Part shown: positions 39,199-58,224 of the stretch, in pieces
Numbering within the stretch: the stretch's first letter is position 1
Layout of the letters: every line of letters begins with the position of its first letter
Assembly: GCF_002797735.1 (NCBI RefSeq)
Contig: NZ_PGFG01000001.1
Span: 682,001 to 746,000 of the forward strand
Reading direction: 5' to 3'
Length of the DNA stretch: 64,000 bases
DNA from: Thermoflavifilum aggregans
GTDB lineage: Bacteria > Bacteroidota > Bacteroidia > Chitinophagales > Chitinophagaceae
The notes under the pieces: generated by a model
The model's database searches: none
Told to the model about the DNA's origin: nothing
Seen by the model: only the letters and a program-made list of their open reading frames with translations
Program-made: the position numbers and the translations under genes

Positions 39199-40127
39199 CG
39201 CGGGGATGCAGGCAACCAGTTGTTGCTGATCAGCCAGTTGCGCAGCCTGTCCATCCATGAATCGGGAGTGGCGGGGTTATGCATACCGAAGCCATGAGGC
39301 CCTTTTTCATACAGGTGCATTTCAACTGGTACCCCGTGCTGGTGCAGGGCAAGGTACATGGCCACGCTGTTGCCCACCTTTACTCCCGGATCGGCGCTGG
39401 ATTGCATGATGAAGGCGGGTGGAGTTTCCGCAGTCACCTCCATCTCGGCGGAGAAGGCACGAATTTGTTCCGGAGAAGGATGTTCACCCAGCAGATGCGT
39501 GCGCGAGCCCATGTGTGTCAGGCTATCAGTCATGCTGATCACCGGGTAGCATAAAATCATGAAATCGGGCCGCAGGGAAATATGAGCTGGGTTATCGATA
39601 AAGTTTTCCTCGAAACGGGTGCCCGCCATAGCTGCCAGATGCCCGCCCGCAGAAAAGCCCATAATACCAATCTGATGGGGATTAATATGCCATTCTGCTG
39701 CATGTTCGCGCACGAGCTGGATGGCGCGCTGGGCATCCTGAAGCGGGCCGATGGATTTATTTACCATGATCCGGTCGTCTGGCAACCGGTATTTCAGCAC
39801 AAAGGCTGCAATGCCCCATCCCTGCAGGGTTTGTGCCACATCGTATCCTTCGTGTTTGATCGCCAGGATGCTGTATCCGCCGCCCGGGCAGATGATGATA
39901 GCCGTGCCTGTAGCCCGCGCAGGATCCGGCAAATAGGCCGTCAGGGTAGGCCGGGTAACCCCGCTGATCCGCACTATGCCATGGGCATCAGTGGTAGAAA
40001 TCTCGTGTACAGCCGTATCGGGCTTTGCATTTGGAATATGGCCGTCATACAGCGGTATTACCTGCTGAGCCCGGATTGAAAAAGTCATACTCATGAAAAC
40101 AACAAGAGCAGGAATGGATTTTTGCAT
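39195..40127 (-). CDS. Exported alpha/beta hydrolase (esterase/lipase-like)
   Basis: 310 aa from ATG 40127 (ATG 40148 is an alternative), with a signal peptide ending at IRAQQ. Oxyanion-hole motif CPGGGYSILA, nucleophile Ser in GFSAGGHLA, Asp in SSADPGVKV and His in GPHGFGMH form the BD-FAE/CE10-like triad. Probably an esterase acting on acylated sugars or plant material. A minus-strand TATACTTG upstream may be the promoter box. Confidence 0.87.
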   Translation of the reverse strand: MQKSIPALVVFMSMTFSIRAQQVIPLYDGHIPNAKPDTAVHEISTTDAHGIVRISGVTRPTLTAYLPDPARATGTAIIICPGGGYSILAIKHEGYDVAQTLQGWGIAAFVLKYRLPDDRIMVNKSIGPLQDAQRAIQLVREHAAEWHINPHQIGIMGFSAGGHLAAMAGTRFEENFIDNPAHISLRPDFMILCYPVISMTDSLTHMGSRTHLLGEHPSPEQIRAFSAEMEVTAETPPAFIMQSSADPGVKVGNSVAMYLALHQHGVPVEMHLYEKGPHGFGMHNPATPDSWMDRLRNWLISNNWLPASPR

Positions 40128-40256
40128 GGTTTCTCTGAAAGATATCATGCCTGCAAGTATACAACAATCTGCTGGGAGTGGATAATAAAACCGGCCGGGG
40201 GATTTTTGGGATATTATCCTCCTTCCGGTCCCACCCAGAGCGGGGGGAAAATAAAA

Positions 40257-40284
40257 AACGCCTGTCTGATTGCAGACAGGCGTT
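40257..40284 (-). terminator. Intrinsic terminator (12-bp stem)
   Basis: AACGCCTGTCTG (40257-40268), loop ATTG, CAGACAGGCGTT (40273-40284). On the minus strand it runs into TTTTTTATTTT. It lies 23 bp after the stop of the Cys-rich exported protein gene. Confidence 0.85.
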
Positions 40285-40307
40285 AAAAGCAAAAACCGGA
40301 GCTCGTT

Positions 40308-40685
40308 TTACATGCTGCCACCCGAGGCCTTCACATTGTCTACCACCAGCGCCTGTACACCACCTCTGTTTTCCACGGTACCGGTAACTTCCACCTGGTC
40401 AGCACCGTATTTCCGGACTTCTTCATAGGGTGCACTCTTGTCGTGGTTTTCTACCAGCAGGTACACTTTGCCGTCGCTGGTGAGCAATCCGGCAGGGGCG
40501 CCACCTTTCAGGCACATCTTGGCACAGCTGGCATGGCCGGGGCCATGAGCACCTTTAGCCATGTAGCAACTCATGTCGAGTACTTCGCCTTTTACGGTTA
40601 CAGTTTTTTGTGCAGAGGCGGAGAGAGCCAGAAAGCTGAAGCAGGCTACAATCAATCCGCCAAGCATGTGTTTTTTCGCCATCAT
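40308..40685 (-). CDS. Small Cys/His-rich exported protein
   Basis: 125 aa from ATG 40685. A signal peptide (GLIVACFSFLALSASAQ) precedes a short domain with DMSCYMAKGAHGPGHASCAKMC, that is three Cys and two His in a loop that could bind a metal or heme, followed by small beta strands (VYLLVENHDKS, QVEVTGTVENRGG). I do not recall a functional name for the family. It has its own strong terminator, so it is probably well expressed. Confidence 0.75.
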   Translation of the reverse strand: MMAKKHMLGGLIVACFSFLALSASAQKTVTVKGEVLDMSCYMAKGAHGPGHASCAKMCLKGGAPAGLLTSDGKVYLLVENHDKSAPYEEVRKYGADQVEVTGTVENRGGVQALVVDNVKASGGSM

Positions 40686-40858
40686 GGGTCTTGTATTTAA
40701 AAGAGTGAACAAATACATGAGAAGTTGTTTAAAGTTACCGCATTTCCTTTGTTTGGTCAATCCGTGTATAAGAAAATACGAAAATCTTAACAGCCTGGTT
40801 TGCACGGAATGCATTTTGCTAAAAAATTTAGTAACTTGGCTTTGCAAATGAAACCGTC

Positions 40859-42136
40859 ATGAACCGGAATACCGTCCACGCAAGGCCTGATCAAGGATAT
40901 GTGATGTTTGTGGATATGAACAGCTTTTTTGCCAGTTGTGAGCAGCAGATGAACTATTACTTGAGAGGGCGTCCGGTAGGAGTTTGTGTGTATACGGGAG
41001 AAAACGGATGTGTTATTGCTCCTTCCATTGAAGCAAAGCAACGGGGCGTAAAAACGGGCATGCGGTTGCGGGAAGCCATGCAGCTGTGTCCTGAACTGGT
41101 GCCGCTGGAATCCCGGCCTGAGCGGTATCGCGAATTCCACATCCGCATCATGGAAGTACTCAGGCGTTATGCAGAAGAAGTGATTCCCAAAAGCATTGAT
41201 GAGGCCGTGATGGACCTGCGGACTTACAAGCTGGTGTATCCGGATCTGATAGTATTGGCCAGGCAGATCAAGAAAGATATCCGCGAGCAGGTGGGTGAAT
41301 GGCTGCGGTGTTCCATTGGCATTGCGCCCAATGCTTTTCTGGCCAAGCTGGGTACCGAATTGCAAAAACCGGATGGATTGGTGATGATTACTCCGGAAAA
41401 TATAGATCAGGTGCTTGCAGGCCTGTCGCTGACGGATCTGCCGGGTATTGGCGAGCGGATGGCCCAACGGTTGCGCAAGGGAGGTATCCATACGCCGCTG
41501 GAATTGCGCCATGCCTCTCCCTATCATTTGCGCCGGGTCTGCCAGAGCATTGTGGGCCTGCATTGGCATTACCGCCTCAATTTTGCGGAGGTGGATATCA
41601 TGGATCATCCTTACAAAACCATGCAGGCCATGCGGCAGATTTCAGCTGCCCAGCGGCAGCGGATACAATCGCTGCATGATCTGCTGGTGGCACTGTGCAT
41701 GACGCTGGAGCGCCGGATGGTGAGCCAAAAGGTCTGTTGCCGGGAAGTGGCCGTACAGTTCACCTACACCTATACACGCCAGTGGCATCAGGTTATCCGA
41801 TTGCCAAAACCCGTACAGGAAGGCATATGGCTGCTGCAGGCCATCCGTCAGCGGATGGAGCATTTTGTGCGTACCCACCACTGCGAGCCGCTCATCAACG
41901 ACCAGCTTACAGCCATGGGCGTCTCCGTATCGGATTTTGTGCCGGAAGAGCTGGTACCTCTAAGTCTGTTTGAAGAGCCACTACGCCGGCAAAACCTGCT
42001 GCGCGCCGTGTATGATATCAAAGATCGCTTTGGCCCGGACAAGCTGATAAAAGCGGTGGAACTTTCCGACGTGCAGCCTATGAAAGATGCCATCGGCTTT
42101 GGCTCGGTGAAAGATCTCCATGCCCGTAAAACCTGA
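40859..42136 (+). CDS. Y-family DNA polymerase (DinB/UmuC-like)
   Basis: 425 aa. Catalytic acidic residues lie in MFVDMNSFFASCEQ and SIDEAVMDL; the helix-hairpin-helix LPGIGERMAQRL and the little-finger domain (residues about 250-370) follow. Translesion polymerase, lesion tolerance and possibly mutagenesis. No umuD or imuA gene is next to it. The stop is 7 bp from the stop of the convergent acyltransferase gene. Confidence 0.9.
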   Translation: MNRNTVHARPDQGYVMFVDMNSFFASCEQQMNYYLRGRPVGVCVYTGENGCVIAPSIEAKQRGVKTGMRLREAMQLCPELVPLESRPERYREFHIRIMEVLRRYAEEVIPKSIDEAVMDLRTYKLVYPDLIVLARQIKKDIREQVGEWLRCSIGIAPNAFLAKLGTELQKPDGLVMITPENIDQVLAGLSLTDLPGIGERMAQRLRKGGIHTPLELRHASPYHLRRVCQSIVGLHWHYRLNFAEVDIMDHPYKTMQAMRQISAAQRQRIQSLHDLLVALCMTLERRMVSQKVCCREVAVQFTYTYTRQWHQVIRLPKPVQEGIWLLQAIRQRMEHFVRTHHCEPLINDQLTAMGVSVSDFVPEELVPLSLFEEPLRRQNLLRAVYDIKDRFGPDKLIKAVELSDVQPMKDAIGFGSVKDLHARKT

Positions 42137-42143
42137 TACATGC

Positions 42144-43295
42144 TTACACCCGGATGTATATCCGGCGGCGATCCAGCCAGAGGCCAATAAGCCAGCAAAT
42201 CAACATATAGCTCAATGAATACAGAAGTCCACCGAAAGCTCCTGTTGCTATCTTCTGAAAAATGTGATCACTTACCCACTGCGGAAGATCATTGTCACCC
42301 ACCGGAATCATCCACAAAATCGTAATCAGTAATTCGGAAACCAGATAAAGGAAAAGCGGATTTCTCCCAAAAACCAAAAAGAAATAAATCAGCCGCTGCA
42401 TGCCTGGCCGGTTCAGCACGTCGGTTCGTACTTCCAGCACATACATCAGCACACCCAGGATGAGCAGATCCAGTCCTACCGTGTAAAGCACAAACGGACT
42501 GGTCCAGAGTTTTTTGGCTATAGGAAAACTCAGGTTCCAGAATAAGGCTACAAACACCAGCAGCGATCCCCAGATCATAAGCCGGGCAATGGTTTCGTAT
42601 GATTTTCCTTTTTCCTGGATGAATTTGCCTGCCAGGTAGCCATACAGCACGTTGACGATAGCCGGTAGCGTACTGAGCACGCCTTCCGGATCGAAATGAA
42701 TGCCTTCTCCGTGATAGAGATGGTTATCGCCAAACAGAAACCTGTCGAGCCGCAATACCGCATTGCCGGTCATGCTCAACGGTGCATGAGGATCGCCGAA
42801 CAGATATAGCAGGGCCCAGTAGCCCAGCAGCATGAGGGCAGACAGGAGGATGACAGCTCTCGTGGAAAGGTAGTAGACGATGATGGAACCGAAGAAATAA
42901 CCCAGGGCTATGCGTTGCAATACCCCCATGATCCGGGTATGGCTGAAAGGCTTCCAGTAAAACTGACCACTGTCGGTAAAATCAAAAAAAGGGAACCAGT
43001 ACATGAGGTATCCTAGCAAAAAGATAATGACCGTGCGTTTGATCACCTTTTGCCAGAAAATAGCAGGCCCGCGCTCGATGTATTTGGGCATGGAAAAACT
43101 CATGGCATTGCCCACCACGAACATGAACGTGGGAAACACCAGATCCGTGGGTGTAAATCCAAACCAATGGGCATGTTCCAATGGCGGATAGGCCTGAACG
43201 CCGGGGGCACCTGTATTTACAATAATCATGAAACAAATGGTCATTCCCCGGAGCACGTCGAGCGACAGGAAGCGTTTTTGCAAGATGTCTGTCAT
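42144..43295 (-). CDS. DUF5009/heparan-N-acetyltransferase-like membrane acyltransferase
   Basis: 383 aa from ATG 43295. About ten membrane helices. Conserved start RFLSLDVLRGMTICFMIIVN, the HW pair in EHAHWFGFTPTDLVFPTFMFVVG and the GVLQRIALGY motif mark the NagX/HGSNAT-like family, which moves an acetyl group across the membrane to a sugar amine. Its 5' part lies in the left 355-bp direct repeat; a truncated second copy is at 56628-56771. In the ancestral order murF lay directly upstream on the same strand. Confidence 0.88.
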   Translation of the reverse strand: MTDILQKRFLSLDVLRGMTICFMIIVNTGAPGVQAYPPLEHAHWFGFTPTDLVFPTFMFVVGNAMSFSMPKYIERGPAIFWQKVIKRTVIIFLLGYLMYWFPFFDFTDSGQFYWKPFSHTRIMGVLQRIALGYFFGSIIVYYLSTRAVILLSALMLLGYWALLYLFGDPHAPLSMTGNAVLRLDRFLFGDNHLYHGEGIHFDPEGVLSTLPAIVNVLYGYLAGKFIQEKGKSYETIARLMIWGSLLVFVALFWNLSFPIAKKLWTSPFVLYTVGLDLLILGVLMYVLEVRTDVLNRPGMQRLIYFFLVFGRNPLFLYLVSELLITILWMIPVGDNDLPQWVSDHIFQKIATGAFGGLLYSLSYMLICWLIGLWLDRRRIYIRV

Positions 43296-43559
43296 GGGTG
43301 AAGGAGTTTTGGAAGATATCACTCAAATGCGAAAAGATAAAAGGTTTTCGTTTTTTTACCTCAGTCAAACGAATGCGCGATGGTTATCATTTGGTTAATC
43401 AGCTAATCACCTGTTCCATAGCGAGGCTTCTGGAGCCTTTTACGAGCACATGAGCGCCGGTAATATGCTGAGACTTCCACCAGTTGCGCAAGGAAACAGC
43501 ATCGGGAAAATACAGATAAGGATGGGAGATGCCGGCAAACTCTTCACCCGCCAAAGCTA
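43205..43559. repeat. Left 355-bp direct repeat bounding the inserted segment
   Basis: Matches 56681-57036 with six substitutions and one T insertion. It contains the first 91 bases of the acyltransferase coding region, the former murF-acyltransferase spacer, and the last 161 bases of a murF copy. To the left the two sequences diverge at once; to the right they diverge after AAAGCTA. Confidence 0.95.
43399..43559 (-). pseudogene. Truncated murF 3' fragment
   Basis: About 53 codons of the MurF C-terminus, from the segment reading GEEFAGISHPYLYFPD to LAMEQVIS and the TGA at 43399-43401. The rest of the gene is missing because the inserted segment starts at 43560. The intact gene is at 56876-58159, with EEVIS where this copy has EQVIS. 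Confidence 0.93.
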
Positions 43560-43643
43560 AGATGATGGCATCAGTTAGGGACGACTGGGTAAAAGCAAGC
43601 AGCAGTGAGCAGTAAGAGAAAAATCCCGATCTATCTAAAGATA

Positions 43644-44273
43644 TTATTCTAAAGAAATCAGCTTATACATGAATGCAAGCCGCACAAGATCGGCCGTGTT
43701 CTTTGCATCCAGTTTCGTCAGTAAACTTTTACGGTAGGTATCTACGGTATTGACGCTGAGATGCAATGTTGCAGCAATTTCAGTATTGGTAAATCCATTT
43801 TTTATCAGGTTTAGTACTTCCTTTTCTCTTCTGCTCAGAATTATCTTATCGTTGGTTTCCAGTTTTGCTGTATGTAGTGTTTTAGCCACTTCAAAAGCCA
43901 TATAGGTTTTGCCAATATGGGCAAGACGGATGGCTTCGGTTAATTCTTTTTGTGTAGCATTTTTTAATACATAACCAGAGGCCCCGTTGTCCATCATTTC
44001 ACTTATATAGCTGGCCTGATTAAAAGTGCTAAGTCCTAAAATATAAAGCCCCGGATATTTTTGTTTCAGTTCTTTACAAAGGTCTATTCCGTTCCCGTCG
44101 GGTAAACTAATGTCTAATAAGAGCACATCAGGTAGTTGATGAGCCAGAAATGCCTTGCAGGAAGCCACCGTGGAAGCCGAGCCGATGAGTTCAATATCAT
44201 GTTCATTCATCAGTAAAGACCTGATGCCTTCCACAACCATGTAATGATCGTCTGTGATAAATACTTTAATCAT
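43644..44273 (-). CDS. NarL/FixJ-type response regulator
   Basis: 209 aa. Receiver domain with DD at 8-9, phosphoacceptor D54 in LLLDISLPDG and K in YVLKNA; C-terminal LuxR-type helix-turn-helix (LSRREKEVLNLIKNGFTNTEIAATL, about residues 145-200). Its ATG directly abuts the stop of the kinase gene, so they are one operon. It most likely controls the divergent surface-protein operon; the paired dyads at 46273-46327 are its candidate site. Confidence 0.94.
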   Translation of the reverse strand: MIKVFITDDHYMVVEGIRSLLMNEHDIELIGSASTVASCKAFLAHQLPDVLLLDISLPDGNGIDLCKELKQKYPGLYILGLSTFNQASYISEMMDNGASGYVLKNATQKELTEAIRLAHIGKTYMAFEVAKTLHTAKLETNDKIILSRREKEVLNLIKNGFTNTEIAATLHLSVNTVDTYRKSLLTKLDAKNTADLVRLAFMYKLISLE

Positions 44274-46226
44274 TTATTCAATATTCAGTTCTAAACTTAC
44301 AAATGTTCCTTTGTCGGGCGCAGAATGTACATCTATACTTCCCTTCAGCATTTCCACCCTTGAGTAGATATTCTTCCAGCCCATACCCCCCATTTCTTTA
44401 CTTAGGGTTACATCAAAGCCTTTGCCGTTGTCTTCTACATTTATCACTAATTTACTCATTTGTCTGAACACCTGTACTAATACTTCTGTGGCCTGAGCAT
44501 GCTTTATAACATTGTTCAGCAGCTCCTGTACGATGCGAAATACCGTGATAGCAGTCGTTTGGTCCATATCTTTATCTTCCATTTCCATAGACTGGTATAT
44601 CACTTTTATTATTCCTGTTTTATTAATTTCTGTTGCATAATCTTTGAGTGCTGTATCCAGTCCGTAGCGTACCAGTACTTCGGGCATCATATTATGGGCT
44701 ATTCTTCGCATTTCTTTTATAGAATTATCCAGCATATCAATACTTCTTTCAAGGGCTTGCTGGTTTTCCGGATTCATTATAAGGTTTCCTTTTATATTTT
44801 GTAAAGTGTATTTTATGCCTGATAACATACCGCTTAGTCCATCATGCAAATCTTTGGCCAGCCGGGTTCTTTCCTGTTCCTCGCCTTTTAATACAGCTTT
44901 TATAGCGCTGAGCTCCTTTTCAGTTTCCAGTTCATTGATGCGTTGTTGCTGTATTTTTTGTTTTTGACGATAGGTTCTGTAGGAGAGCAATAAGATAGTG
45001 GCAAACAACAATGCTGTTATACCCAGCATATATATCAGTCGTTTCTGGTTTTCGAGTTGTTTTTGCTGCCACTTAATAGTAGCTTCCTTTTTTTCTGATT
45101 CATATTTCTTTTCTAAGGATGTAGCCAGATTTTTGTTTTTTAAGCTGGCAACAGAATCTGAAATTGATTTATATTTTTTATAATATTCCAGCGCTTTTTT
45201 GGTATCGCCCCGGTCTTCATACAGGTCTGCTAAATATTGGAAGGCAATATTTTTTTGTGCCAGCTCTCCGGTTTTATTAATTCCTTCGAGTGCTTCCAGT
45301 AAATATTTTTCAGCCTCATCGAATTTTTTTTCTTTTCTCCGCACATTTCCCATTTGAAGAAGCGATTGATACCTGCCAAAAGCGGATTGGTTTTGTGACA
45401 AGTCATAGGCTTTTTTAAATGACTGAAAAGAAGAATCTAACTTGTTTAACTGGAGAAAAATGGAACCTCGAATAAGATAATAATTTAACAAAGCTATTGG
45501 TTGATTTTGATGATAATTATTTATGTACAATGCTGCACTGTCTATATATACTTTTGCATCTTTAACCTTGTCTTGTTCTGATAGGGCATGCGCTACATAG
45601 GTATATGCAATAAGCAAATCATCTTTGTTTTGCGTTTTTCTTGCAATAGATAGCGCTTTTCGAGCATAGAATTCCTGCCGAGTATAATCTTGTAATTCTT
45701 TGTAAAGAACAGCGGTGTTAAGCAGAGAAGTAATCAAACCAGCCGGTCTGTTAATTTCTTCGAAAAGTTGATTGCTTTGCAGATGGTATTCGATACTTAT
45801 TTCATATTGGTTCAATTCTTTATACACAGAGGCAAGCTGGCTTACTATCTGAGCTTTTTTAAATGCTGTATTGGGATGGGAGCTCTGGTCTATAAAAAAG
45901 AGGGCAGTATCGAGACTGTGAAGTGCTTCATCATATTTTCCAGCTGCTTGAAAAAGAAAGGAGCGATTAAAATATAAATTAGCTGTTTCAAAAGGCAATT
46001 TTTTATTTCGTGCAAAACGAATAGCCTCTTCATAAATCCTGGCCGATTGGGAAGTATCCACAGTTTCATATAAAACAGCCAGTTGCATCAGCATTTTAGC
46101 CCGGGTGGTATCCGGGAGATTTTTTTTCAGTTCCCGTTTCAGGCTGTCTATGGCTAGGTTCTGAGAATACCCCCATATCTGGCAGCTACACAGCAATATA
46201 ATGAAGGTTATTCTCCTGACGGGCAT
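44274..46226 (-). CDS. TPR-containing sensor histidine kinase (HisKA_3 type)
   Basis: 650 aa. Signal sequence (residues 1-21), at least six periplasmic TPR-like helical repeats (about 30-370), a coiled coil, one membrane helix (397-417), then HisKA_3 with H461 in AKDLHDGLSG and a HATPase domain (LLNNVIKHAQA, VEDNGKGFDV, GMGWKNIYSRVEML). The TPR sensor suggests it detects a protein or peptide outside the inner membrane. The neighbouring operon also encodes TPR proteins that are exported, which could be ligands or relatives. Confidence 0.93.
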   Translation of the reverse strand: MPVRRITFIILLCSCQIWGYSQNLAIDSLKRELKKNLPDTTRAKMLMQLAVLYETVDTSQSARIYEEAIRFARNKKLPFETANLYFNRSFLFQAAGKYDEALHSLDTALFFIDQSSHPNTAFKKAQIVSQLASVYKELNQYEISIEYHLQSNQLFEEINRPAGLITSLLNTAVLYKELQDYTRQEFYARKALSIARKTQNKDDLLIAYTYVAHALSEQDKVKDAKVYIDSAALYINNYHQNQPIALLNYYLIRGSIFLQLNKLDSSFQSFKKAYDLSQNQSAFGRYQSLLQMGNVRRKEKKFDEAEKYLLEALEGINKTGELAQKNIAFQYLADLYEDRGDTKKALEYYKKYKSISDSVASLKNKNLATSLEKKYESEKKEATIKWQQKQLENQKRLIYMLGITALLFATILLLSYRTYRQKQKIQQQRINELETEKELSAIKAVLKGEEQERTRLAKDLHDGLSGMLSGIKYTLQNIKGNLIMNPENQQALERSIDMLDNSIKEMRRIAHNMMPEVLVRYGLDTALKDYATEINKTGIIKVIYQSMEMEDKDMDQTTAITVFRIVQELLNNVIKHAQATEVLVQVFRQMSKLVINVEDNGKGFDVTLSKEMGGMGWKNIYSRVEMLKGSIDVHSAPDKGTFVSLELNIE

Positions 46227-46272
46227 ATTTACTTTTATTAGGATTACAAATTTACAATTATGCGTCGGTAAT

Positions 46273-46327
46273 AATACCCATTTTTAGGGGATGGCAATAA
46301 AGACAAATACCCCCTTTTCGGGGATGG
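46273..46327. promoter_or_regulatory. Paired 22-bp dyads, candidate operator
   Basis: Two near-identical elements at 46273-46294 and 46306-46327: AATACCC, then a T-rich centre, then GGGGATGG. Each is itself a dyad (CCC...GGGG). Start-to-start distance is 33 bp, about three helical turns. They lie in the 144-bp gap between the divergent kinase and OmpA genes, the natural place for the regulator of this pair to bind. Confidence 0.6.
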
Positions 46328-46370
46328 TACGCAAATAGCTAAATTCTCAATTTTGAAGAAACTTGTAATT

Positions 46371-47657
46371 ATGATTTACCTTCTAAAAAAACTGCTAAAG
46401 CAAGCCGGTAAATTGTTTTTGATATTACCTTTTTTAGTTATTCTGATTTGTGATACAGATGCACAAATCCTGAAAAAATTAGGGGAAAAAGTGAAAAGTG
46501 AAGTAGCTAAAACCGTTAAAAATGCTGATAATAATCAACCACCACCATCGGTAAATAGTACCGACACTGAGCAAATGAGTATGGCAGCTCAGCCTTCCCA
46601 AAACAAGGCAGCCTACATCAGTAAGTTTGATTTTATTCCAGGTGAAGAAGTGATTTACTATTATGATTTTTCTGATGTTAATATAGGAGATGCACCCGAA
46701 AATTGGCAGATAGACGGGTCGGCCGAGGTGGTGGAGGTAGAGGGATATCCCGGAAAATACATCATGCTCAACGATCACTCTGCCATCATACCGGAAGCAT
46801 TTGAAGAATTACCGGATGAATTTACCGTACAGTTTGATTTGATTTGTACGAATCCTTTTGCATGGGGTTCTAACAATTTATATTTTGCTTTCGCCAATAC
46901 TAATCCCAACCAAACGCCCGACGGAACGCATGAAGATCTGGGATCAGTAAATAACACGGTATTTTGGATAGGTATTCATCCGGGAAGTCAGACTGCCGCA
47001 GCTAATAAAGGTCATGGCGAATATATTTTAAGAACGAGATCGGGTGTAAAGAAGGGTATTTTTTCGGCCGAAAGTTTTAATGATAAAGAGGAAGGCAGAT
47101 TTGCTAAAATTTCTATCTGGCGACAGAAAAAAAGAGTGCGGGTATATGTAAATGAAAATAAAGTGCTCGACCTAACGAGCATTTTGCCGCCTGATATGAT
47201 TGTGAATACACTTGCCTGGAGTGCTTACAGATATTTTAACGATGATAAATATTTCATAGGAAATATTCGAATTGCCAAAAGCCTGCCTGATAGTCGTAAT
47301 GATATGCTGCAAACGGGTAAGTACAGTACCACAGGAATTCTTTTTGATGTAAACAGTGCAGAAATCAAACCTGAATCATACGGTATATTAAAAGAGATTG
47401 CCGGGCATCTGAAATTGGCCGAAGGGGCAAAGATTACCATCATTGGGCATACCGACAGTGATGGTGATGAGACCAAAAATCTGGAGCTTTCCAAGAAAAG
47501 AGCCGAGGCTGTAAAAAAATCGCTGGTCAATGATTTTGGTATTTCTTCTTCATTGATTGAAACGGAAGGTAAAGGAGAATCAGAACCTGTGGCACCAAAT
47601 GATACACCGCAGAATAAAGCTAAAAACAGACGGGTAGAATTTGTAATTAAGAAATAA
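46371..47657 (+). CDS. OmpA-domain surface lipid-anchored or periplasmic protein
   Basis: 428 aa from ATG 46371. Signal peptide of about 32 residues. The middle (about 80-290) resembles a concanavalin/LamG-like beta domain (YYYDFSDVNIGDAPENWQ, FAKISIWRQKKRVRVYVNENKV). The C-terminal OmpA-like peptidoglycan-binding domain runs from GILFDVNSAEIKPES to RRVEFVIKK, with HTDSDGDETKNLELSKKRAEAV. It should tether the system to the cell wall. First gene of the operon; the TPR gene follows at 27 bp. Confidence 0.88.
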   Translation: MIYLLKKLLKQAGKLFLILPFLVILICDTDAQILKKLGEKVKSEVAKTVKNADNNQPPPSVNSTDTEQMSMAAQPSQNKAAYISKFDFIPGEEVIYYYDFSDVNIGDAPENWQIDGSAEVVEVEGYPGKYIMLNDHSAIIPEAFEELPDEFTVQFDLICTNPFAWGSNNLYFAFANTNPNQTPDGTHEDLGSVNNTVFWIGIHPGSQTAAANKGHGEYILRTRSGVKKGIFSAESFNDKEEGRFAKISIWRQKKRVRVYVNENKVLDLTSILPPDMIVNTLAWSAYRYFNDDKYFIGNIRIAKSLPDSRNDMLQTGKYSTTGILFDVNSAEIKPESYGILKEIAGHLKLAEGAKITIIGHTDSDGDETKNLELSKKRAEAVKKSLVNDFGISSSLIETEGKGESEPVAPNDTPQNKAKNRRVEFVIKK

Positions 47658-47684
47658 AATGCCCAATCAAAATTATTTTAGAAA

Positions 47685-49856
47685 ATGAAGCAGTATCCTT
47701 TCATTCTTTTAATAATGTGCCTGATCTGGGGAATGGGCTTTTCAAATTTGCTAAAAGCCCAGCAGCCCACTAAAAAGGAAATGGAAGACATGCAGAAAAT
47801 GATGGAGCAGATGAAGAATGACCCCGATATGCAAAAAGCCATGAAACAATTTGGGATAGACAGTAAATCCATTGATAAGTTGATGAACAATCCTTCAAAC
47901 ATCAGTTCCAATTCCTATTATGAGTTTGATGAATTTCAGGTGCCAAAAAAGAATGTATCACGAATAAATGCAATTCCTGCTCTAAAAATTAATAACAGTA
48001 ATTTACCCGAGTATCTGCGTATTGCACAAAAATGTGTAGAAGCTTCTCTTAATACAGAGCAGCTTAAAATGGTTCATCAGTTACTTTCTTATGCCTCTTC
48101 GTCTCCTGACACCTTGGCTTATATGGCCAGTGGTTTATGGATGTCGGGGCTTTACCTTCCTGCTACTTATGTAATGGCTGAGGCGAGCCGCTTAAAACCA
48201 AATGTAACCAACCTGAATAATTTTTCGGCATTTCTGGTAATGACGGGTGCAGAAGAACTGGCGCTGCCTGTTCTGCAAAAGCTAAACAGAGAAAATCCTA
48301 AAAACAGGTATATACTCAATAATATTGGACAGGCCTGGTTTGGACTGGGCGATTTGGACAACGCAATTAAATATTTAGATAGTACTATTCTCATTTTTCC
48401 GACCCATTCTCAGGCCAACCAAACCAAATGTGTGATTCAGAATGCTAAGGGCGATAAAGCCGGCGCTATTCAATCCATGAAACAATCAGTAAAAGGTGCT
48501 TACAGCTCAACAAAAGAAAACATGTTACGCAAACTGGGTTATAAGCTCGAAGCTACAGACCTCAATAATTCAGATTTGCACATGCCTGCCGACCCGCTCG
48601 GATTTGCCAAATGGATGGCTATTATTCCACCCTTTCCAAAATCATATAAAGAACAAATGCTGCTTCCTCCCAAATGGAAAGATTTTTATCAGCAAATTCT
48701 GGATGAACGCACTAAGCTCAGTGAAAAGGCATCACGGTTAAATATGGAATATGCCGATTCATTGGTAAAACGTGCAGAAAGGTTTAAAGCAAATCCGTTT
48801 AAGAACCAGTTTAAAGAACCTTATTTATATGCCAAAGCAGATATAATACTTAAATATTATACGGACGATAAAGATGGTCATAATGCAGCTAAGGCAAAAA
48901 TGATAAACGAGGAAATGAAGTTAACTTATGACAACATGGAAACGTATAAAACCAATGCTTATCAAAAGTATGAAAAACTAAAACGGAGATATTTCGACCC
49001 AATTGGAGAGGGACAGCAATTACCACCTGGCGATATGTGCAAGGAGGTTATTAATTTGTACAATTCGTGGATTAAATCTTCAAATAGCGAACTTGAAGCC
49101 TTCACTATTGATTTTTTAAAATACAAATCGAAGCGATTGGAGGCCATTGCCTATTTTACTCAATATACTACAGATTTGCAGCCACTGATTGATTTTACCG
49201 AAACATCGATGAAGCTTGCCTTTCTGGCTGACCTGGAAAATATTAAACCTCTTCTTGATTATCAATCAAACTTTGCGTGGGGATGTATTCAAAGTGAATT
49301 GGAGAAATCACATGAAGAAAACCGCAAATTGGCAGATTGGGACGATTTGCATTGCGATAAGAACATCACATTTAGTGTTCCGGGTATTGGCTCCTATCAT
49401 TTCAGTTGTAATGCCACCTCTGTGAATCTGGATCCATTAATTCTTCCCTTCAAAGCCAGTTTTGAACAAAATCTTAATACCGGTGAGTTTGTGAATGCTA
49501 CGGGCAGTGTTGGTTACGGACCTGTTGATGTGGGTGCCGAATATGATTTTGTGAAAGATAATGGTGCTGCATTTGTTGAAGCTTCTACTACTGTAATCAA
49601 TGAAAATCACGGACCCATTAAGATAAATGCCGGTGTAAAAGGAAGAGCTACCATAGAGTTTGATAAAAATGGACCATGCGGATTAGAATTAGAAGCATCC
49701 GGAAGTGTAAAAGTTGGAAACGATGCTATAACTGTAAAAGGCGATACCAATGTAAAATGGGGATGGGAAGCCGGAGGCTCGGGAGAAGCCAAGGGCAGTA
49801 TTGACAGTAAAGCGTTGAGCACAGCCATCAAGGCTATTAATTTCATTAAAAAATAA
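47685..49856 (+). CDS. Exported TPR protein, copy 1 (glycine-rich C-terminus)
   Basis: 723 aa. Signal peptide (to about residue 25, LLKAQQ), a Met-rich helical stretch (KEMEDMQKMMEQMKNDPDMQ), TPR-like repeats about 100-290 (NNIGQAWFGLGDLDNAIKYLDSTILIFP), a helical region, and a C-terminal 170 residues of repeated beta strands with many Gly (VGYGPVDVGAEYDF, KGRATIEFDKNG, VKWGWEAGGSGEAKG). Clearly paralogous to the protein at 50970. No functional family recognised. Ten bases separate it from the next gene. Confidence 0.85.
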   Translation: MKQYPFILLIMCLIWGMGFSNLLKAQQPTKKEMEDMQKMMEQMKNDPDMQKAMKQFGIDSKSIDKLMNNPSNISSNSYYEFDEFQVPKKNVSRINAIPALKINNSNLPEYLRIAQKCVEASLNTEQLKMVHQLLSYASSSPDTLAYMASGLWMSGLYLPATYVMAEASRLKPNVTNLNNFSAFLVMTGAEELALPVLQKLNRENPKNRYILNNIGQAWFGLGDLDNAIKYLDSTILIFPTHSQANQTKCVIQNAKGDKAGAIQSMKQSVKGAYSSTKENMLRKLGYKLEATDLNNSDLHMPADPLGFAKWMAIIPPFPKSYKEQMLLPPKWKDFYQQILDERTKLSEKASRLNMEYADSLVKRAERFKANPFKNQFKEPYLYAKADIILKYYTDDKDGHNAAKAKMINEEMKLTYDNMETYKTNAYQKYEKLKRRYFDPIGEGQQLPPGDMCKEVINLYNSWIKSSNSELEAFTIDFLKYKSKRLEAIAYFTQYTTDLQPLIDFTETSMKLAFLADLENIKPLLDYQSNFAWGCIQSELEKSHEENRKLADWDDLHCDKNITFSVPGIGSYHFSCNATSVNLDPLILPFKASFEQNLNTGEFVNATGSVGYGPVDVGAEYDFVKDNGAAFVEASTTVINENHGPIKINAGVKGRATIEFDKNGPCGLELEASGSVKVGNDAITVKGDTNVKWGWEAGGSGEAKGSIDSKALSTAIKAINFIKK

Positions 49857-49866
49857 AGCCTTTGAA

Positions 49867-50958
49867 ATGAAAAGTAAATGCACAAAAATTTTATTGATTT
49901 TAGTGATAGTTCTGTCAGGAATGAATAAGCTATGGGCACAGCCATGCCCTGAAAATCCTTACACAAAAAAAGGTACATGGGTCCACGAAAATGACGGCGG
50001 ATTTAACTATAACAATGCGCATCCGGAGGCATTAAAAAACAAAAAAAATATCAGTGCAGTTTTAGATTCGATTGCCGGGTTACTTATGAAACATAATCCG
50101 CAACCCGAAGGCAGTTATGCCAAATGGGTAAAAATTCTCAAAACTGATATAGACTCGGTTTCAAGCCCCGATCCTTCGTTTGCCAATTATGAAATCGAGA
50201 GTTGGTTCCTGCCGTATGTGTGCAATAAAGGTGTTGTAGAGCCATTCAATGCCACAGATACCTGGCTTTATGTGGATGTGAATGACTACTGGTGCAGCGG
50301 GCATACCCTTCAACATGAAATGAACCATGCACTGGGTGAAAGGCTTTTTACTTTGCCACCACAAAGGGGAACACTTGGCGGTTACCCTGTGTTTGAACCT
50401 GTCCCCAAGGGTGAAAAGGACGATCCCTGGCTGATTTTTTACTCGGTATTGGTACATAAACCCGGAAAACTGCCCTATGTGCCAGTTACAAAAGCTGAAT
50501 TCTTTGAGTTGAACAGAAAACTCATTGAGGTTAAAGAAAAAGAATACAAGGCAGGAATTGAACGGCAACGAAAAAATATGGGAGAAGACTGGTACACCGA
50601 ACGTGCCGACCAGATTAAGAAACAATTTCAGGGAATGCGTGATAATCTAGAGCAACTGATGAAATTGTATGAAAAAGAATTGAATCAGCCTGCCATACTC
50701 CGGGAATGGGAATGGACGATAAGAGGAATTGAAATTGCCAATCCTACACAAAAAAACCTGTTTACCACTGCAAACAGAGGGTACCAATTAGTAAGGGCAA
50801 ATCCGGATTATATGGACAAGACACAGGCAAAATGGAAACCTCAATTTATATGGGTAGAATGGTTTAAGGTCGTTGGTAAACCCAATTCGGTGGCGCTCGA
50901 TAAAGTAATGCATGAACAGTTCGATTTTAAGGAACTGGGAAAACTGCTGACACATTGA
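49867..50958 (+). CDS. Exported protein of unknown function, intact copy of the partner gene
   Basis: 363 aa. Signal peptide ends near LWAQPC. A sequence HEMNH at residues 150-154 matches the HExxH zinc-protease pattern, but the paralog at 53120 lacks it, so a protease role is doubtful. The C-terminal block LFTTANRGYQLVRANPDY...WKPQFIWVEW is well conserved in the paralog. The gene overlaps the next reading frame's possible TTG start by 4 bp. It occurs in tandem with the TPR gene twice, implying the two products work together. Confidence 0.8.
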   Translation: MKSKCTKILLILVIVLSGMNKLWAQPCPENPYTKKGTWVHENDGGFNYNNAHPEALKNKKNISAVLDSIAGLLMKHNPQPEGSYAKWVKILKTDIDSVSSPDPSFANYEIESWFLPYVCNKGVVEPFNATDTWLYVDVNDYWCSGHTLQHEMNHALGERLFTLPPQRGTLGGYPVFEPVPKGEKDDPWLIFYSVLVHKPGKLPYVPVTKAEFFELNRKLIEVKEKEYKAGIERQRKNMGEDWYTERADQIKKQFQGMRDNLEQLMKLYEKELNQPAILREWEWTIRGIEIANPTQKNLFTTANRGYQLVRANPDYMDKTQAKWKPQFIWVEWFKVVGKPNSVALDKVMHEQFDFKELGKLLTH

Positions 50959-50969
50959 TTACATACAAA

Positions 50970-53120
50970 ATGATTCAATTACAATATATGCAACGCTATA
51001 AAACATTTACAATGACTTTGAATAAATACCTTTTAGGTATTCTAATTGTCTTTTTTGTTAGCATTGTGTTTACTAATATTTCAAGGGCGCAGCAACTATC
51101 GAAAGAGGAACTTGAATTGGTCATTAAATCAATGGAACAGGCATGTGCTTCGCCTGAAGCCATCGAGCAATTCAGAAAAAGTGTAAATGCACAGGATATG
51201 GCATCAGGAAGCAATGTGTCTGGAAATATATCAAAATTACTTACAGATTTTTCAATTCCTGCCAGAAATGAACAGCGAATTAAATCAGTACCTAAACAAG
51301 TCTATAACAATACCCAATTAAAAAAACATCTCATTGTTATTGTTCAAAAGCTGGATGGATGGATGAACGAGAATGATAGAAAAATGGTTGACTTCATCCT
51401 ACAGCTGCCGGAATCGAACAATCCGGATAATCTGGCTGCTCTTGCCAATTCGTTCTGGATGTGTGCCAATTACAATACCGCTTTAATTTTAATGGGCAAA
51501 GCAGCTCTAATGAAACCCGATGTTGATAAGCTCAACAATTTTGCAGCATTCCTTGAAATGATGGGCGGAGAAGAACTGTCGCTCCCGATTTTGCAACGGT
51601 TAAATCATGATTTTCCTGGCAACAGTACAGTTCTGAATAATATTGGGCAGGCATGGTTTGGTTTGGGTGATTTGGAAAAAGCACAGAAATACCTTGACAG
51701 TGCCCTTCTTATTTTTCCTGCTCATCCTCAGGCAAATCTTACCTGTGCTGTGATTGCCGAGTCGAAAGGTGACATTAATAAGGCAGTACAATTATTAAGA
51801 AGATCAATTACCAATGCATATAGCAAAGACAAGGAAAATATGTTAAACCGGCTGGGATACGAGATCTCAGAAAAGGATTTCTCCGAAAAGATTCATGTGC
51901 CGGAAGATGCTCTTGGATTTGATAAATGGATTGCAGAAATACCTAAATGGCCGATGAATGCGATGGAAGTGCTGGAATTGAAACCGGCTTGGGATGAATT
52001 TTTCAACCAGGTTGAAACAGAAGAAGCATCATTGCGTGAAAAAATGGCTGTACTTCAAAAACAGTGGAATGAATTGTTGAATACTTCAGCCGAGAAAGGG
52101 ATACCTGTACCGCTTCAACATCGACCGGTAAACCTTGGCCCCAAAGCGAGTATCCTTTTCAGATATTATGCTCAGGATCGGGATGGCCGAAGACGCTACC
52201 AGACCGATAAGATACAATATGATGGAGAGTGGTGGACGAGCATGGCGGACAGTCTCATCCAGCAATTGAACCAAAAGATGCTGGCCATTAAATCGAAATA
52301 TGAGGGTGATCCTCAAAAAGAGAAAATAATGTGCGAAGAAATGACCAAGGCTTGCAATGAGTTTATTGGTGCAATGAACCTTGCAAGTCAGACTTATTTT
52401 AAACCCCTTTTAGACAGCAAGAAAAAAGAAATCAGCGATGATGCATACTTCGGCTCAATTACAGCAGCCCACGATCTGGAGGCAGAGATGGCAGCTATCA
52501 ATGCAAAACTTAAATTTTTGTACTTATTTTCCGGGAATTTACGCCCTACCCTTGTGCTTGATAACGGGCTACCTCCAACTATTTGTATTCCCGAACAAAC
52601 CAAAAAAGCACATTTCAGAAAATTGAGAGATTTTGATGACATCAATTGTAACAACAAAGTTGAGTTTACAATGCCCGGCATAGGTTCGTGGGGATTTTAT
52701 TGTAATAAATCAACATTCAATTTCAAACCGATATTCAGTCCCTTAGGAGTTTCTTTTATTCAAAATTTGAATACGAATGAATTTATTACTGGATCGGTAA
52801 GCATTGGTAAAGGCCCCGCAGATATTACAGCTGCGTACGATTTTGAGAATGAAAAAGGAAGTGTTAATGCGGGCATTAAAATTGGTAAAAAAAACCTGGG
52901 ACCTATTGAGTTAAGCGCCAAGGCCACTACTAAAATCGAATTTGACCGGAGTGGAATCAGTGATGTGAGTATAGGGGTAGAAACAGCCGCCTCAGCAGGT
53001 AATAAAATCGGTGGGGTTAAGGTTGGAAATGATACCCGGATTGGGTGGAATTCAGGAATATCAGGAAAAACTAAGGGAAGTATAACTGGTATAGCCGTAC
53101 AAATAATGAATATGAAATAA
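50970..53120 (+). CDS. Exported TPR protein, copy 2
   Basis: 716 aa from ATG 50970 (TTG 50955 or ATG 51012 are alternatives; 51012 gives the best signal peptide, YLLGILIVFFVSIVF). Same order as copy 1: helical N-terminus, TPR region with NNIGQAWFGLGDLEKAQKYLDSALLIFP, helical middle, and Gly-rich beta C-terminus (FTMPGIGSWGFYCNKS). Paralogous over its whole length with visible divergence, so the duplication is old. Its stop overlaps the start of the next gene by one base (TAATG). Confidence 0.85.
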   Translation: MIQLQYMQRYKTFTMTLNKYLLGILIVFFVSIVFTNISRAQQLSKEELELVIKSMEQACASPEAIEQFRKSVNAQDMASGSNVSGNISKLLTDFSIPARNEQRIKSVPKQVYNNTQLKKHLIVIVQKLDGWMNENDRKMVDFILQLPESNNPDNLAALANSFWMCANYNTALILMGKAALMKPDVDKLNNFAAFLEMMGGEELSLPILQRLNHDFPGNSTVLNNIGQAWFGLGDLEKAQKYLDSALLIFPAHPQANLTCAVIAESKGDINKAVQLLRRSITNAYSKDKENMLNRLGYEISEKDFSEKIHVPEDALGFDKWIAEIPKWPMNAMEVLELKPAWDEFFNQVETEEASLREKMAVLQKQWNELLNTSAEKGIPVPLQHRPVNLGPKASILFRYYAQDRDGRRRYQTDKIQYDGEWWTSMADSLIQQLNQKMLAIKSKYEGDPQKEKIMCEEMTKACNEFIGAMNLASQTYFKPLLDSKKKEISDDAYFGSITAAHDLEAEMAAINAKLKFLYLFSGNLRPTLVLDNGLPPTICIPEQTKKAHFRKLRDFDDINCNNKVEFTMPGIGSWGFYCNKSTFNFKPIFSPLGVSFIQNLNTNEFITGSVSIGKGPADITAAYDFENEKGSVNAGIKIGKKNLGPIELSAKATTKIEFDRSGISDVSIGVETAASAGNKIGGVKVGNDTRIGWNSGISGKTKGSITGIAVQIMNMK

Positions 53121-54250
53121 TGATTAAACTCACAAATTTTATGAAAAGGGGATTTATAATATCAGTCATCTTTTTTTTAGTCTTTTTTATGTTGAATGAA
53201 AAAGCTAAGCCCCAGAGTTGTAGAGAAAAGGCTGAGAACATGGGGCTTTGGGTAAGGAGTAAAGATGTCAGGCCCATAGGGCAGGAAAATGCAACAACAG
53301 TTAATAACCTCAAAAAAATTACTGCTGTGGTAGATAGTATCGGATCCCTATTCATAAAATCATATCCCACACCTTTCGGCAGTAAAGTTGTGTGGGGCCG
53401 TGTTTTACAACCGGTTGATAGCGTTACATTGCCAGATTATGAATTGGCCAGTTACCTCTATATGGGATACGTTTTGGCTTACCGATGTATAAATAACAAG
53501 ATTGAAGTAGACGATGAGACACCAATAACTCTTGTTGCAAGCTTTAACGATTATTACCGCAGCGGTTATGCGCCAGCTATAGATGAGAACAAGAAACTGC
53601 ATAAAAATCTCTTTTGGTTGCCCCCTCAACAGTTTTCTGTCAAAGGTTATCCAGGATTTGCATCAATCGCCAACGGTTGGGCTGAGAATATCAGAGAAAT
53701 GCGATACAGCGTTTTGGTGCATAAGGAAGGTAAGCTCCCTTATACACCTGTTTCGATAAAGGAATACTTCGACTTGTGTTTGCAATTAATTGACTTTAAC
53801 GAGAAAAAATCTATACAAGAATTGAATGAATTACGGAAAAAAGGTTACAAAATCTAACCGGATGATGAGCAAAAGGAACATGAGAAATCCGAAAAATTGC
53901 GTGAGTACGTTCGCAAACAAATGCAACGCTATGCAAGCAAGCTCGAAAAACCAGCTATTTTGAAAAGACCTGAATTTTCTATTGCTTATGAGAATATTGT
54001 TCCCAATGAAGATTTATTTACTACAGCCAACCGTGGTTATCAACTGGTTCGTCCTAATCCGGATTATGTAGAAAAAAATGCAGAAAAATGGAAACCGCAG
54101 TATATATGGATTAGCTGGACGGTAAGTATGACAGATGATTTCCCATACCCATATTATCGTAAACTTACTGCCAAGCTTGATAAAATGATGCGTGAAGTAT
54201 TCGACTTTAGAGAGGTTGAAAAAATGTTAAGTAATAATTATAAAAAATAA
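53120..54250 (+). pseudogene. Second copy of the partner gene, broken by an in-frame stop
   Basis: A 376-codon frame parallel to the protein at 49867, interrupted by TAA at 53855-53857 without any frame change. The first part (245 aa, signal peptide included) ends at KKGYKI; the second part continues in the same frame through LFTTANRGYQLVRPNPDY to the stop at 54248-54250. The HExxH of the first copy is absent. If the stop is real, only a truncated product is made. Confidence 0.8.
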
Positions 54251-54321
54251 TTATAAAAATTGCAATCAATACGAGGTGACAGTTTAGCTGTGTAGAAAGG
54301 TTCAAGTCAATATGATCTGCC

Positions 54322-54393
54322 AACTTATCTGAACTTGAGAATGTGATACACAAACAGTTCGATTTTAATTAATTGGTAAAACTAATTTACTAA
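54322..54393 (+). pseudogene. Remnant of a third copy of the partner gene (C-terminal tail)
   Basis: Reading from 54322: NLSELENVIHKQFDFN, stop, LVKLIY, stop. This lines up with the end of the intact copy, NSVALDKVMHEQFDFKELGKLL. The nucleotide stretch CAGTTCGATTTTAA is shared. Nothing of the rest of the gene remains between 54251 and 54321. Confidence 0.6.
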
Positions 54394-54423
54394 ATAATTT
54401 TTTACATCAAATTCTATGTAAAA

Positions 54424-55903
54424 ATGAAACTGAATATTCAACATTTTGTAAAAAAAATACTTATTATATCAACGCTGTCTGTCAGTTTTTTGAATGTTGA
54501 TGCACAAACTCAATTGTCAAACATATTTAGCTATACACTGCCAGCCGGATTTGTAAAATCGAGATACGATGATAAAACAGAGTTTTATTTTAAAAAAAAA
54601 TAAAAAATGGGTGATTATTGATTTATTTGATATCAGACCTTCTAACGGAAATGCAGCAGAAGATGCCCGGAACGACTGGAATGAAATAGTTGCGCCCAAT
54701 TATGTTGTAAAAAATGATATCAGTACCGAATTTCAGGAAATAGATAGCTGGCAGTTAACCGCTCAAAGTGTTACTACCAGCGGAATCCTTAAATTTAATG
54801 TTAGCCTTATAACCTTTAGCTGTTCATATGGACACGCTTCAATTTTACTTGTTAATAATGATTTTCAGAATATACTTGACGGCCCCATTACTGATTTTAT
54901 AAGCAGTTTAAAAGTAGTAAGTCCTCAGGAAGCATTAGCCTACATTAAGCCTTCAAATAATGCTAATGTACCGTTTGCAAATACTCAATTGCCCGGCTCA
55001 CAGTCACAATCGAGCATAAACCAAAATAATAACGATAACAATAACGCTTCAACAAACAATATAGTATCAGCCGTGTCCGCTAATCCATATAATCCGCCCT
55101 TCCCAACGCCAGGCGAACAGCCTGTAAAGGCATCCATTATGATGGATGTGGGTTGGTTTGTGGAAGCCACCAACGATTATATACAGTACACAAAAAAAGA
55201 TATCAAAGTGATTCAGTATTTTTTTGTTGCGCCGCAGAATCCCAATTCCAATACACCCGATGAAGATCTTTTTTGGCAAAAATATCTGAATCAGTATTTT
55301 TCGACTGACACATACAATAAGTATCCGAACGACCCTTACGATTTTCTTAATCGGATTGCATTTGCCTCCTGCAACGCAGTGTATCGGGGAGATGGAAAAA
55401 CATACTTTATTGCATGGATGGTGAGTAATTACTGTTCTTATCTGGCCATTACTTCCAGCGAGCAGGTTTATAATTCCTATTTTAAACATCCAAATGAATT
55501 GGCAGGAATGGAAAGGTTTAACAATTTCCCTGTAACCACACAGGAAATTCAAGGTAAATGGGTATCTACCAGTTTTGCTGGAGCACAGATGTACAGCAGC
55601 ATAACCGGTTATTATGCTGGGATGGCTGTAGCCACTTCAGCAACCAGTTTTGAATTTTCGGGCAATATGTTTAATAAGTCAACACAGGGAGCAACTGGAA
55701 TGGTTGGATCGATGCAAACTTTTTCTTCCGAAACAAAGGGAACATTCAAAGTGAATGACTATACTCTGGTTACCACTGAGGTAGGTTCAGAACCTGATGC
55801 AAAAGAATATTATTGTGCATTCAAGTATGCGAAAAATGCTAAAATTTTATTCTTGCAGGATAAAAAGTACTCAGGTATGACCTACTATCTTATAAAAAAA
55901 TAA
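54424..55903 (+). pseudogene. Exported protein gene frameshifted at a run of nine A
   Basis: ATG 54424 gives a signal peptide (KKILIISTLSVSFLNVDAQ) and runs to TAA 54601-54603. One base out of phase, from within the A run 54592-54600, the frame stays open to 55903 (444 aa from an internal ATG 54569). With eight A the two join as FYFKKNKKWVIIDLF. The long part has an Asn/Ser-rich linker and a beta-rich C-terminal domain (QGKWVSTSFAGAQMY to YYLIKK). Function unknown. Slippage at the A run could restore the protein, or the run may be misread. Confidence 0.75.
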
Positions 55904-56374
55904 AAAAATTATTAAAATTCCAAAACATAAGAACAATCTTGTTCATTTGGGATTTTCCAGTGGCTATAAAAACTACAGCAAAGCGCGAGAGCTCTGTATG
56001 AAAGCATCCAGGCAACCTTCTTCTACTCAATGTTATATCATTTCAAATTATTTTATAGCTAAGAATATTTCTGATATAATTGCGGCATAACAGCTGTTTA
56101 GCTAAATTCTGATTGTACATAAGAATTGGGCTATTACGGATGTATATTCTTCATTAATTTTCCTTGCCATAGTCATCAATATACGTGGGTTTATCAAATA
56201 CTCCTATATCCATGAGGCTAATCTGCAAGACAGGTGTACTCATATGAGAGAGAAAATCTTCTGAAACAACAGTGCGTCTTAAAGTATTATAAACCTTGCT
56301 TCAGATGAAATACCACTCCTTTATAAAATGAAAATATGTAGTACTCAAATAGGAACTCAAAAAAATGAAAACCT
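55904..56374. other. Degraded non-coding DNA at the right end of the inserted segment
   Basis: About 470 bp of AT-rich sequence with frequent stops in all frames. I see no gene, no tRNA and no clear repeat in it. Confidence 0.6.
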
Positions 56375-56497
56375 CTACATCTGATTTCTTAGTTGATTAG
56401 TTGCAATATCCCTGAAAATGATTCTTTTATTGTGTTGATACCGGTCAATTTGAATTGTTTGTACATCCGAGGCTGTCTCAACAACTCGTATCTTCAT
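56375..56497 (-). pseudogene. Transposase N-terminal remnant (IS4/IS1634-like)
   Basis: 40 codons from ATG 56497: MKIRVVETASDVQTIQIDRY, then HNKRIIFRDIAT. This resembles the first residues of IS1634/IS4-family transposases (MxIRxxxTASGxxAVQV...). The rest of the element is missing. It lies about 180 bp inside the right repeat and may be a trace of an insertion sequence. Confidence 0.45.
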
Positions 56498-56627
56498 AAC
56501 AATGAGGCGATGTAGGGCTGAATATCTGTTAACTCTTAACCTGAAAAATTTACGCATGGATACAAGGTTGCTGCAGTATTAGTCAACTCATGAAAACACT
56601 TGTTCAGTCTTACTCCTAATTTTTCAT

Positions 56628-56771
56628 TTAGAACGAAACTATAAAAGACGGTAGAAAGAAAGGCAGGCCGTTTGACAGATGGGCACCTGTATTTACAATA
56701 ATCATGAAGCAAATGGTCATTCCCCGGAGCACGTCGAGCGACAGGAAGCGTTTTTGCAAGATGTCTGTCAT
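56628..56771 (-). pseudogene. Truncated acyltransferase 5' fragment
   Basis: From ATG 56771 the frame matches the acyltransferase at 42144 (MTDILQKRFLSLDVLRGM) for 30 codons, up to NTGA, then reads 17 unrelated codons (HLSNGLPFF...) to a TAA at 56628-56630. The break coincides with the edge of the right repeat at 56681. Confidence 0.92.
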
Positions 56772-57036
56772 GGGTGAAGGAGTTTTGGAAGATATCACTC
56801 AAATGCGAAAAGATAAAAGGTTTTCGTTTTTTTTACCTCAGTCAAACGAATGCGCGATGGTTATCATTTGGTTAATCAGCTAATCACCTCTTCCATAGCG
56901 AGGCTTCTGGAGCCTTTTACCAGCACATGAGCGCCGGTAATATGCTGAGACTTCCACCAGTTGCACAAGGAAACGGCATCGGGAAAATACAGATAAGGAT
57001 GGGAGATACCGGCAAACTCTTCACCCGCCAAAGCTA
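56681..57036. repeat. Right 356-bp direct repeat bounding the inserted segment
   Basis: Partner of 43205-43559. Contains the start of a truncated acyltransferase copy and the last 161 bases of the intact murF. One extra T in the T run accounts for the length difference. Confidence 0.95.
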
Positions 57037-58159: not shown

Positions 58160-58193
58160 GGATCGGCGTTTATGGCGGGTTTGCAACAAAAAT

Positions 58194-58224
58194 AAAGGCC
58201 TTTCCCGGTTCAGGAAAGGCCTTT
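58194..58224 (-). terminator. Intrinsic terminator between gldJ and murF
   Basis: AAAGGCCTTTCC (58194-58205), 7-base loop, GGAAAGGCCTTT (58213-58224). On the minus strand the stem leads into ATTTTTGTTG. It lies after gldJ and before the murF start. Confidence 0.8.

Follow-up and report, generated by a model that had tools for sequence, protein, structure and literature searches.

FimS/FimR of Porphyromonas gingivalis has in common with the locus described here a Bacteroidota kinase with TPR repeats in the periplasmic sensor domain, as reported for FimS (PMC11053733), and its regulator FimR is described as binding the mfa1 promoter and activating mfa1 (PMC1974823). The sequence of the FimR site was not found in those parts of the FimR literature that were consulted. 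The kinase of the window (i.e., the whole 64-kb stretch of Thermoflavifilum aggregans DNA analysed here) scores 83.6 bits against the NCBIfam FimS model, far under the cut-off of 600 bits, and membership of FimS was rejected on this score. DosR/DevR and VraR belong to other phyla and have other signals and targets than the system of the window. The likeness to them is in the protein: the two-domain layout is common to these regulators and that of the window, and the best PDB sequence matches of the latter are VraR (2.6e-30) and DevR (2.6e-29). For DosR the likeness extends to a base-contact position, as residue 178 of the window regulator aligns to Lys182 of DevR/DosR, which is described as contacting bases together with Lys179 and Asn183 (PMC4082495). 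The dyad family presented below has a central A5 tract and ATCCC or ATCATT arms, and is set beside DosR and VraR at the level of the protein. The site of NarL is the heptamer TACYYMT, and TACCCAT is found in one half of the first dyad of the window. The other halves do not fit this heptamer by eye, nor do relatives keep TACCCAT, and a NarL heptamer site was rejected, as the fit is limited to a single half in a single unit.

Two dyads on an island of low GC content

The window contains two imperfect dyads of 22 bp, AATACCCATTTTTAGGGGATGG (46273-46294) and AATACCCCCTTTTCGGGGATGG (46306-46327), which are 86% identical, lie 33 bp apart from start to start and each have the layout CCC(C)-A/T-rich-GGGG. 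Both are located within the 126-bp gap between the ATG of the kinase gene (46226, minus strand) and the start of an OmpA-type open reading frame on the plus strand (TTG 46353 or ATG 46371). The preliminary description had claimed two matching 22-bp dyads at 46273 and 46306, 33 bp apart, each unit being itself a dyad, between the kinase and OmpA genes; positions and spacing turned out to be exact, the location agrees with the coordinates of the reading frames, and the symmetry was confirmed as that of an imperfect dyad. The features are collected in Table 1.

Table 1. Coordinates of genes, dyads and putative promoter boxes in the window
Feature	Position	Strand	Remarks
Response regulator, 209 aa, receiver and LuxR/GerE DNA-binding domain; Asp178 in recognition helix	43644..44273	-	
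TPR sensor histidine kinase, 650 aa	44274..46226	-	TPR, HisKA_3 and HATPase_c
Putative -7 box of kinase-regulator operon, TAAATTTG	46247..46254	-	TTTG at offset 44 from proximal dyad frame
Dyad proximal to kinase promoter	46271..46294 (24-bp matrix frame; 22-bp unit 46273-46294)	-	minus-strand sequence CCATCCCCTAAAAATGGGTATTAT
Dyad proximal to OmpA-side promoter	46304..46327 (24-bp frame; 22-bp unit 46306-46327)	-	minus-strand sequence CCATCCCCGAAAAGGGGGTATTTG
Putative, imperfect -7 box of OmpA-side operon, CAATTTTG	46348..46355	+	TTTG at offset 48 from OmpA-proximal dyad frame
Protein with C-terminal OmpA-family domain; divergent first gene, presumed target	46371..47657 (also opens at TTG 46353)	+	
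Genes co-directional with and downstream of OmpA	47685..54250	+	presumably on the same transcript

Both domains of the regulator at 43644 (PF00072 and PF00196) scored above the cut-off. The genes downstream of OmpA encode two TPR proteins (at 47685 and 50955) and two unknown proteins that are related to each other (49867 and 53120/53897), the latter having no Pfam match above the cut-off. This module of a TPR-protein gene and an unknown gene appears to have been duplicated in tandem between 47685 and 54250; in the second module the relative of the unknown gene at 49867-50958 is broken into two reading frames, 53120-53857 and 53897-54250, and a further stretch related to it is found at 54334-54383. 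Homologues of the TPR proteins are present in 13 of the 48 related loci that were searched.

The dyads are rare both in the window and in the genome. With up to 2 mismatches the pattern AATACCCNNTTTTNGGGGATGG has 2 matches in the window, versus 0 in 100 dinucleotide shuffles, and with up to 3 mismatches it finds in the whole 2.84-Mb genome the two dyads, both at 0 mismatches, and a single place with 3, whereas the reversed control gave 0 matches in the same search. Copies of the motif scattered at random through coding DNA had been named in the preliminary description as evidence that would speak against an operator; the search of this genome did not refute the operator, as beyond the pair no place with fewer than 3 mismatches was found anywhere in the 2.84 Mb. 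The shorter pattern TACCCNNTTTTNGGGGATG matches 28 places with up to 3 mismatches, versus 22 for its control, with only the two dyads at 0 mismatches and two other places at 2. A related stretch of 17 bp at 46166, within the kinase gene, looks like a product of chance.

The kinase, regulator, OmpA and TPR genes are carried on a segment of 13.1 kb with a GC content of 38%, between flanks of 49-51%. This island is bounded by direct repeats of 356 bp that are 98% identical (43205-43559 and 56681-57036) and cover the 5' end of one neighbouring gene along with the 3' end of a gene that is murF-like from the reading of its translation. In 4 of 4 other genomes of the genus that were compared the junction is uninterrupted and present as a single copy, and no regulator match at 1e-60 was found in those four. 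No tRNA was found within 40000-60000, and a Pfam search of island proteins, covering a subset of the reading frames, revealed no integrase. The long duplication looks like the outcome of a circle integrated by homology. The operator, the regulator and its presumed targets probably arrived together, and such a joint arrival fits a self-contained switch that has no other good site in the genome.

The site family in related genomes

A regulator match at 1e-60 was found in 106 of 394 genomes of the family to which the window belongs, taken to be Chitinophagaceae since it includes genomes with loci almost identical to ones from Pseudobacter and Flavihumibacter. Of the 80 named loci that were kept, 38 (L052-L089) match the regulator at 49-79% identity; about 22 of these are from Chitinophagaceae or its genera, and the remainder from other or unplaced Bacteroidota. 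A 24-bp matrix was seeded with the two sites of the window and two strings typed after reading the relatives, and was iterated on 37 regions upstream of kinases with cores at least 53% identical. Its consensus is roughly A-A-T-C-C-C-N-T-A5-N-G-G-G-A-T. Among these training regions a site was present in 32 of 37 and a pair in 18 of 37, versus at most 1 site and no pair in shuffles, and in the far group (kinase cores below 53% identity) a site was found in 1 of 15 regions. In the window the kinase-proximal dyad scores 20.5 bits with the 37-region matrix and 17.9 bits with the family matrix, and the OmpA-proximal dyad 22.0 and 21.3 bits, respectively; these scores are in-sample, as both matrices were built including the region of the window. 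With the family matrix, which likewise includes that region, the next best place in the 64 kb reaches 14.8 bits.

For the held-out test three of 40 test loci yielded no kinase-upstream region, and from 40 test regions six were dropped as near-duplicates of training loci (at least 90% over 300 bp), one as it had no adjacent regulator and one as its kinase core was below 50%, which left 32. Of these 32 regions, 24 had a site of at least 15 bits and 13 had two sites 26-42 bp apart; the set retains the near-duplicate pair L195/L199 and comes from genomes that may hold other training loci. Ten rounds of dinucleotide shuffles of the same 32 regions gave no site and no pair.

The place at which such dyads occur is specific. 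AATCATGGAAAAAGGGGA, the commonest proximal dyad of the relatives, was found with 1 mismatch at 36 places in 32 of 294 genomes, versus 3 places for the reversed control. In 28 of 30 fetched loci the site was followed, on its own strand, by a homologous kinase, and two loci were without a kinase match. The kinase alignment begins 35-290 nt from the site (952 nt in one locus), and a second dyad is located 27-39 bp upstream in 21 of the 30. The pattern itself came from these sites, and there is overlap between the genomes searched and those of the matrix, so that this search measures the specificity of the place and not conservation. In both kinase-less loci an open reading frame crosses the site (371 and 364 codons), but the same holds for 8 of the 28 kinase loci (482-529 codons), whose kinase frame stays open upstream; this measure therefore does not separate the two groups. 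Among 65 loci the density of sites at 17 bits is 3.7 per kb upstream of kinases versus 0.06 per kb elsewhere, about 60 times higher than in the rest of the same loci, an in-sample figure from matrices that were trained on these upstream regions. Of the 41 sites elsewhere in the 65 loci, some are located upstream of further kinase copies and several belong to the local regulator's class, and these may be further targets.

Pairs of dyads were also found in a Chryseosolibacter, a Cytophagales, a Mariniphaga and a Mariniflexile locus. The close relative L059 has no scored site upstream of its kinase; instead two sites 47 bp apart are located in the flank. In L053 (7903-8001), which encodes a regulator orthologue (78%) in a locus without a kinase match, a dyad precedes the regulator gene by about 98 bp.

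The window's own pattern occurs at 46 places in 43 of the 294 genomes, versus 13 for the reversed control, and only 3 of 30 fetched loci adjoin homologues of the kinase, the regulator or OmpA, so that the pattern alone is a poor probe. These matches at unrelated places, and the fact that each unit is a dyad with G+C arms, could be taken to mean that the likeness is accidental, or that the units form a hairpin or terminator in a transcript in place of an operator. The probability of this is negligible. Chance was rejected on the genome-wide search and the shuffles of the window, in none of which a match occurred, and is also contradicted by the recurrence in held-out regions; a hairpin or terminator was rejected from the position of the dyads upstream of start codons and the absence of a T run after the arms, and would not readily account for conserved bases outside the arms.

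Correspondence between regulator class and site class

The site differs between relatives along with the regulator. Classes were taken from 101 regions with regulators of at least 50% identity, having Asp (62), Asn (28), Glu (10) or His (1) at residue 178; the single His178 region was left unclassed. Judged by the best-scoring site in leave-one-out scoring, a dyad ATCATT-A5-GATGAT is found in all 28 regions with Asn178, while with the same scoring the 62 Asp178 regions comprise 53 with a C-type site (ATCCC arms), 0 with an N-type site and 9 with none, and the 10 Glu178 regions 7 with a C-type site and 3 with none. Conversely, ATCATT-A5-GATGAT is the best match in 0 of the 72 Asp and Glu regions, and iteration from either seed converged on the same matrix consensus. 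Four Asn-type regions (L173, L196, L197, and L251) are mixed and have one dyad with a GAGGAT or CAGGAT arm, which resembles the C-type class more closely.

When residue 178 was masked, a tree of the 101 regulators placed the Asn group in one clade with one change (support 96/95, with a bootstrap not fully settled). The match of regulator and site is one co-change and not 28 independent cases, and because the Asn class is one clade the Fisher value of 2e-22 was not used as a probability. Other residues of the regulator changed along with residue 178 in this clade. Five hand-listed genomes contain both classes. In four of them (G091, G195, G226, and G357) the site at each promoter matches the class of its own regulator, and in the fifth (G123) the Asp-side region is without a scored site and C-type sites are found nearby in the locus (L182). 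More Asn-class dyads were observed in the flanks of L161, L170, L179, and L198, all with a regulator of the Asn class, and it is possible that these are additional local targets.

In principle the motif could belong to a different protein, perhaps a global regulator, with the neighbouring regulator acting elsewhere. This is very unlikely, as the motif is without a further close copy in this genome and is concentrated in relatives at the promoter of this very kinase, and as the half-site tracks the class of the adjacent regulator even between paralogues of one genome. The earlier proposal that the dyads are the operator of the regulator at 43644 is supported by the comparison, i.e., by recurrence in held-out regions, by the scarcity of copies elsewhere, and by a half-site that differs together with the recognition helix.

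Promoter geometry and a proposed two-way switch

The -7 box of Bacteroidota sigma-A promoters has the reported consensus TAnnTTTG and is located at -12 to -5 (PMC9723704). The putative kinase-side box of the window fits this consensus and the OmpA-side box is off at one fixed base. Among 56 paired regions from the same set of regulators (at least 50% identity), with offsets counted from the start of the frame of the nearer dyad, the kinase side has TTTG at offset 46 in 40 (26 of 38 Asp-type and 14 of 18 Asn-type), and the divergent side has it at offset 48 in 18 (9 of 38 and 9 of 18, respectively). Given a -7 box at -12 to -5, the dyad centres of the relatives lie near -43 on the kinase side and -44 on the divergent side, and those of the window at about -41 and, on the OmpA side, -44. 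The spacing between dyads ranges from 27 to 41 bp, with 30 of the 56 regions at 36-38 bp, in a search restricted to 25-42 bp; two loci with spacings of 46 and 50 bp fall outside. The preliminary description had read the 33-bp spacing of the window as three helical turns; a three-turn spacing is not conserved in the family, where 10 of 56 paired regions have dyads 33-34 bp apart. As the distance between dyads is not fixed, phasing on one face of the helix is not the conserved feature, and a phased 33-bp operator was ruled out as such. Recurrent distances from dyad to TTTG, together with a variable spacing between dyads, rather suggest a two-way activator platform than one phased operator. This suits an activator with a dyad for each of the divergent promoters; support for such an arrangement is good on the kinase side and partial on the other.

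The same regulator could also bind the dyads as a repressor and cover -33 of both promoters until a signal releases it. Autorepression is common among regulators, and -33 falls within the 24-bp dyad frame, which extends from about -54 to -31. Repression nevertheless appears improbable, as dyads at a regular distance from TTTG, with centres near -43 and the -7 box left free, have the usual place of an activator, and NarL/LuxR-type regulators are often activators. Against repression is also that FimR, the regulator of a related TPR kinase, is reported to activate mfa1 (PMC1974823).

We have considerable confidence in the activator reading, in which dimers of the LuxR/NarL-type regulator from 43644 bind the two dyads, and these serve as a platform for activation in both directions. 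Positive autoregulation would be exerted through the dyad at 46271-46294, centred near -41 of the kinase-regulator promoter, and that at 46304-46327 would serve the divergent OmpA/TPR promoter from near -44; for the opposite promoter each would double as a distal site, at about -74 to -78. Stimulation of the TPR kinase would bring the regulator, presumably in its phosphorylated form, onto both dyads and thereby recruit RNA polymerase in both directions, to transcription starts that are predicted from the -7 boxes. Both divergent transcripts, that of its own operon among them, are thus probably under positive control by the regulator.

As a kind this is an ordinary regulator-operator pair, yet the site family to which it belongs is widely conserved, probably has a two-way layout and shows a recognition switch. 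A limited literature search (of titles, and of text for C-type dyad strings only) found no description of this site family or of such an operator. We are inclined to believe, with some reserve, that it represents a widespread Bacteroidota family of self-regulating switches of a TPR kinase and a LuxR-type regulator, which use paired A-tract dyads as a two-way activator platform with one dyad per divergent promoter, and comprise at least two insulated recognition classes, one with ATCCC and one with ATCATT arms, that are linked to residue 178 and coexist within a single cell. Chitinophagaceae frequently have TPR sensor kinases with LuxR-type regulators, and no published site was found for these. 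With a recognizable site next to the regulator, targets become predictable from sequence, and the switch of class at a base-contact residue makes a recognition code testable by the exchange of one residue. The divergent promoter could in turn serve as a reporter in a search for the signals to which these kinases respond.
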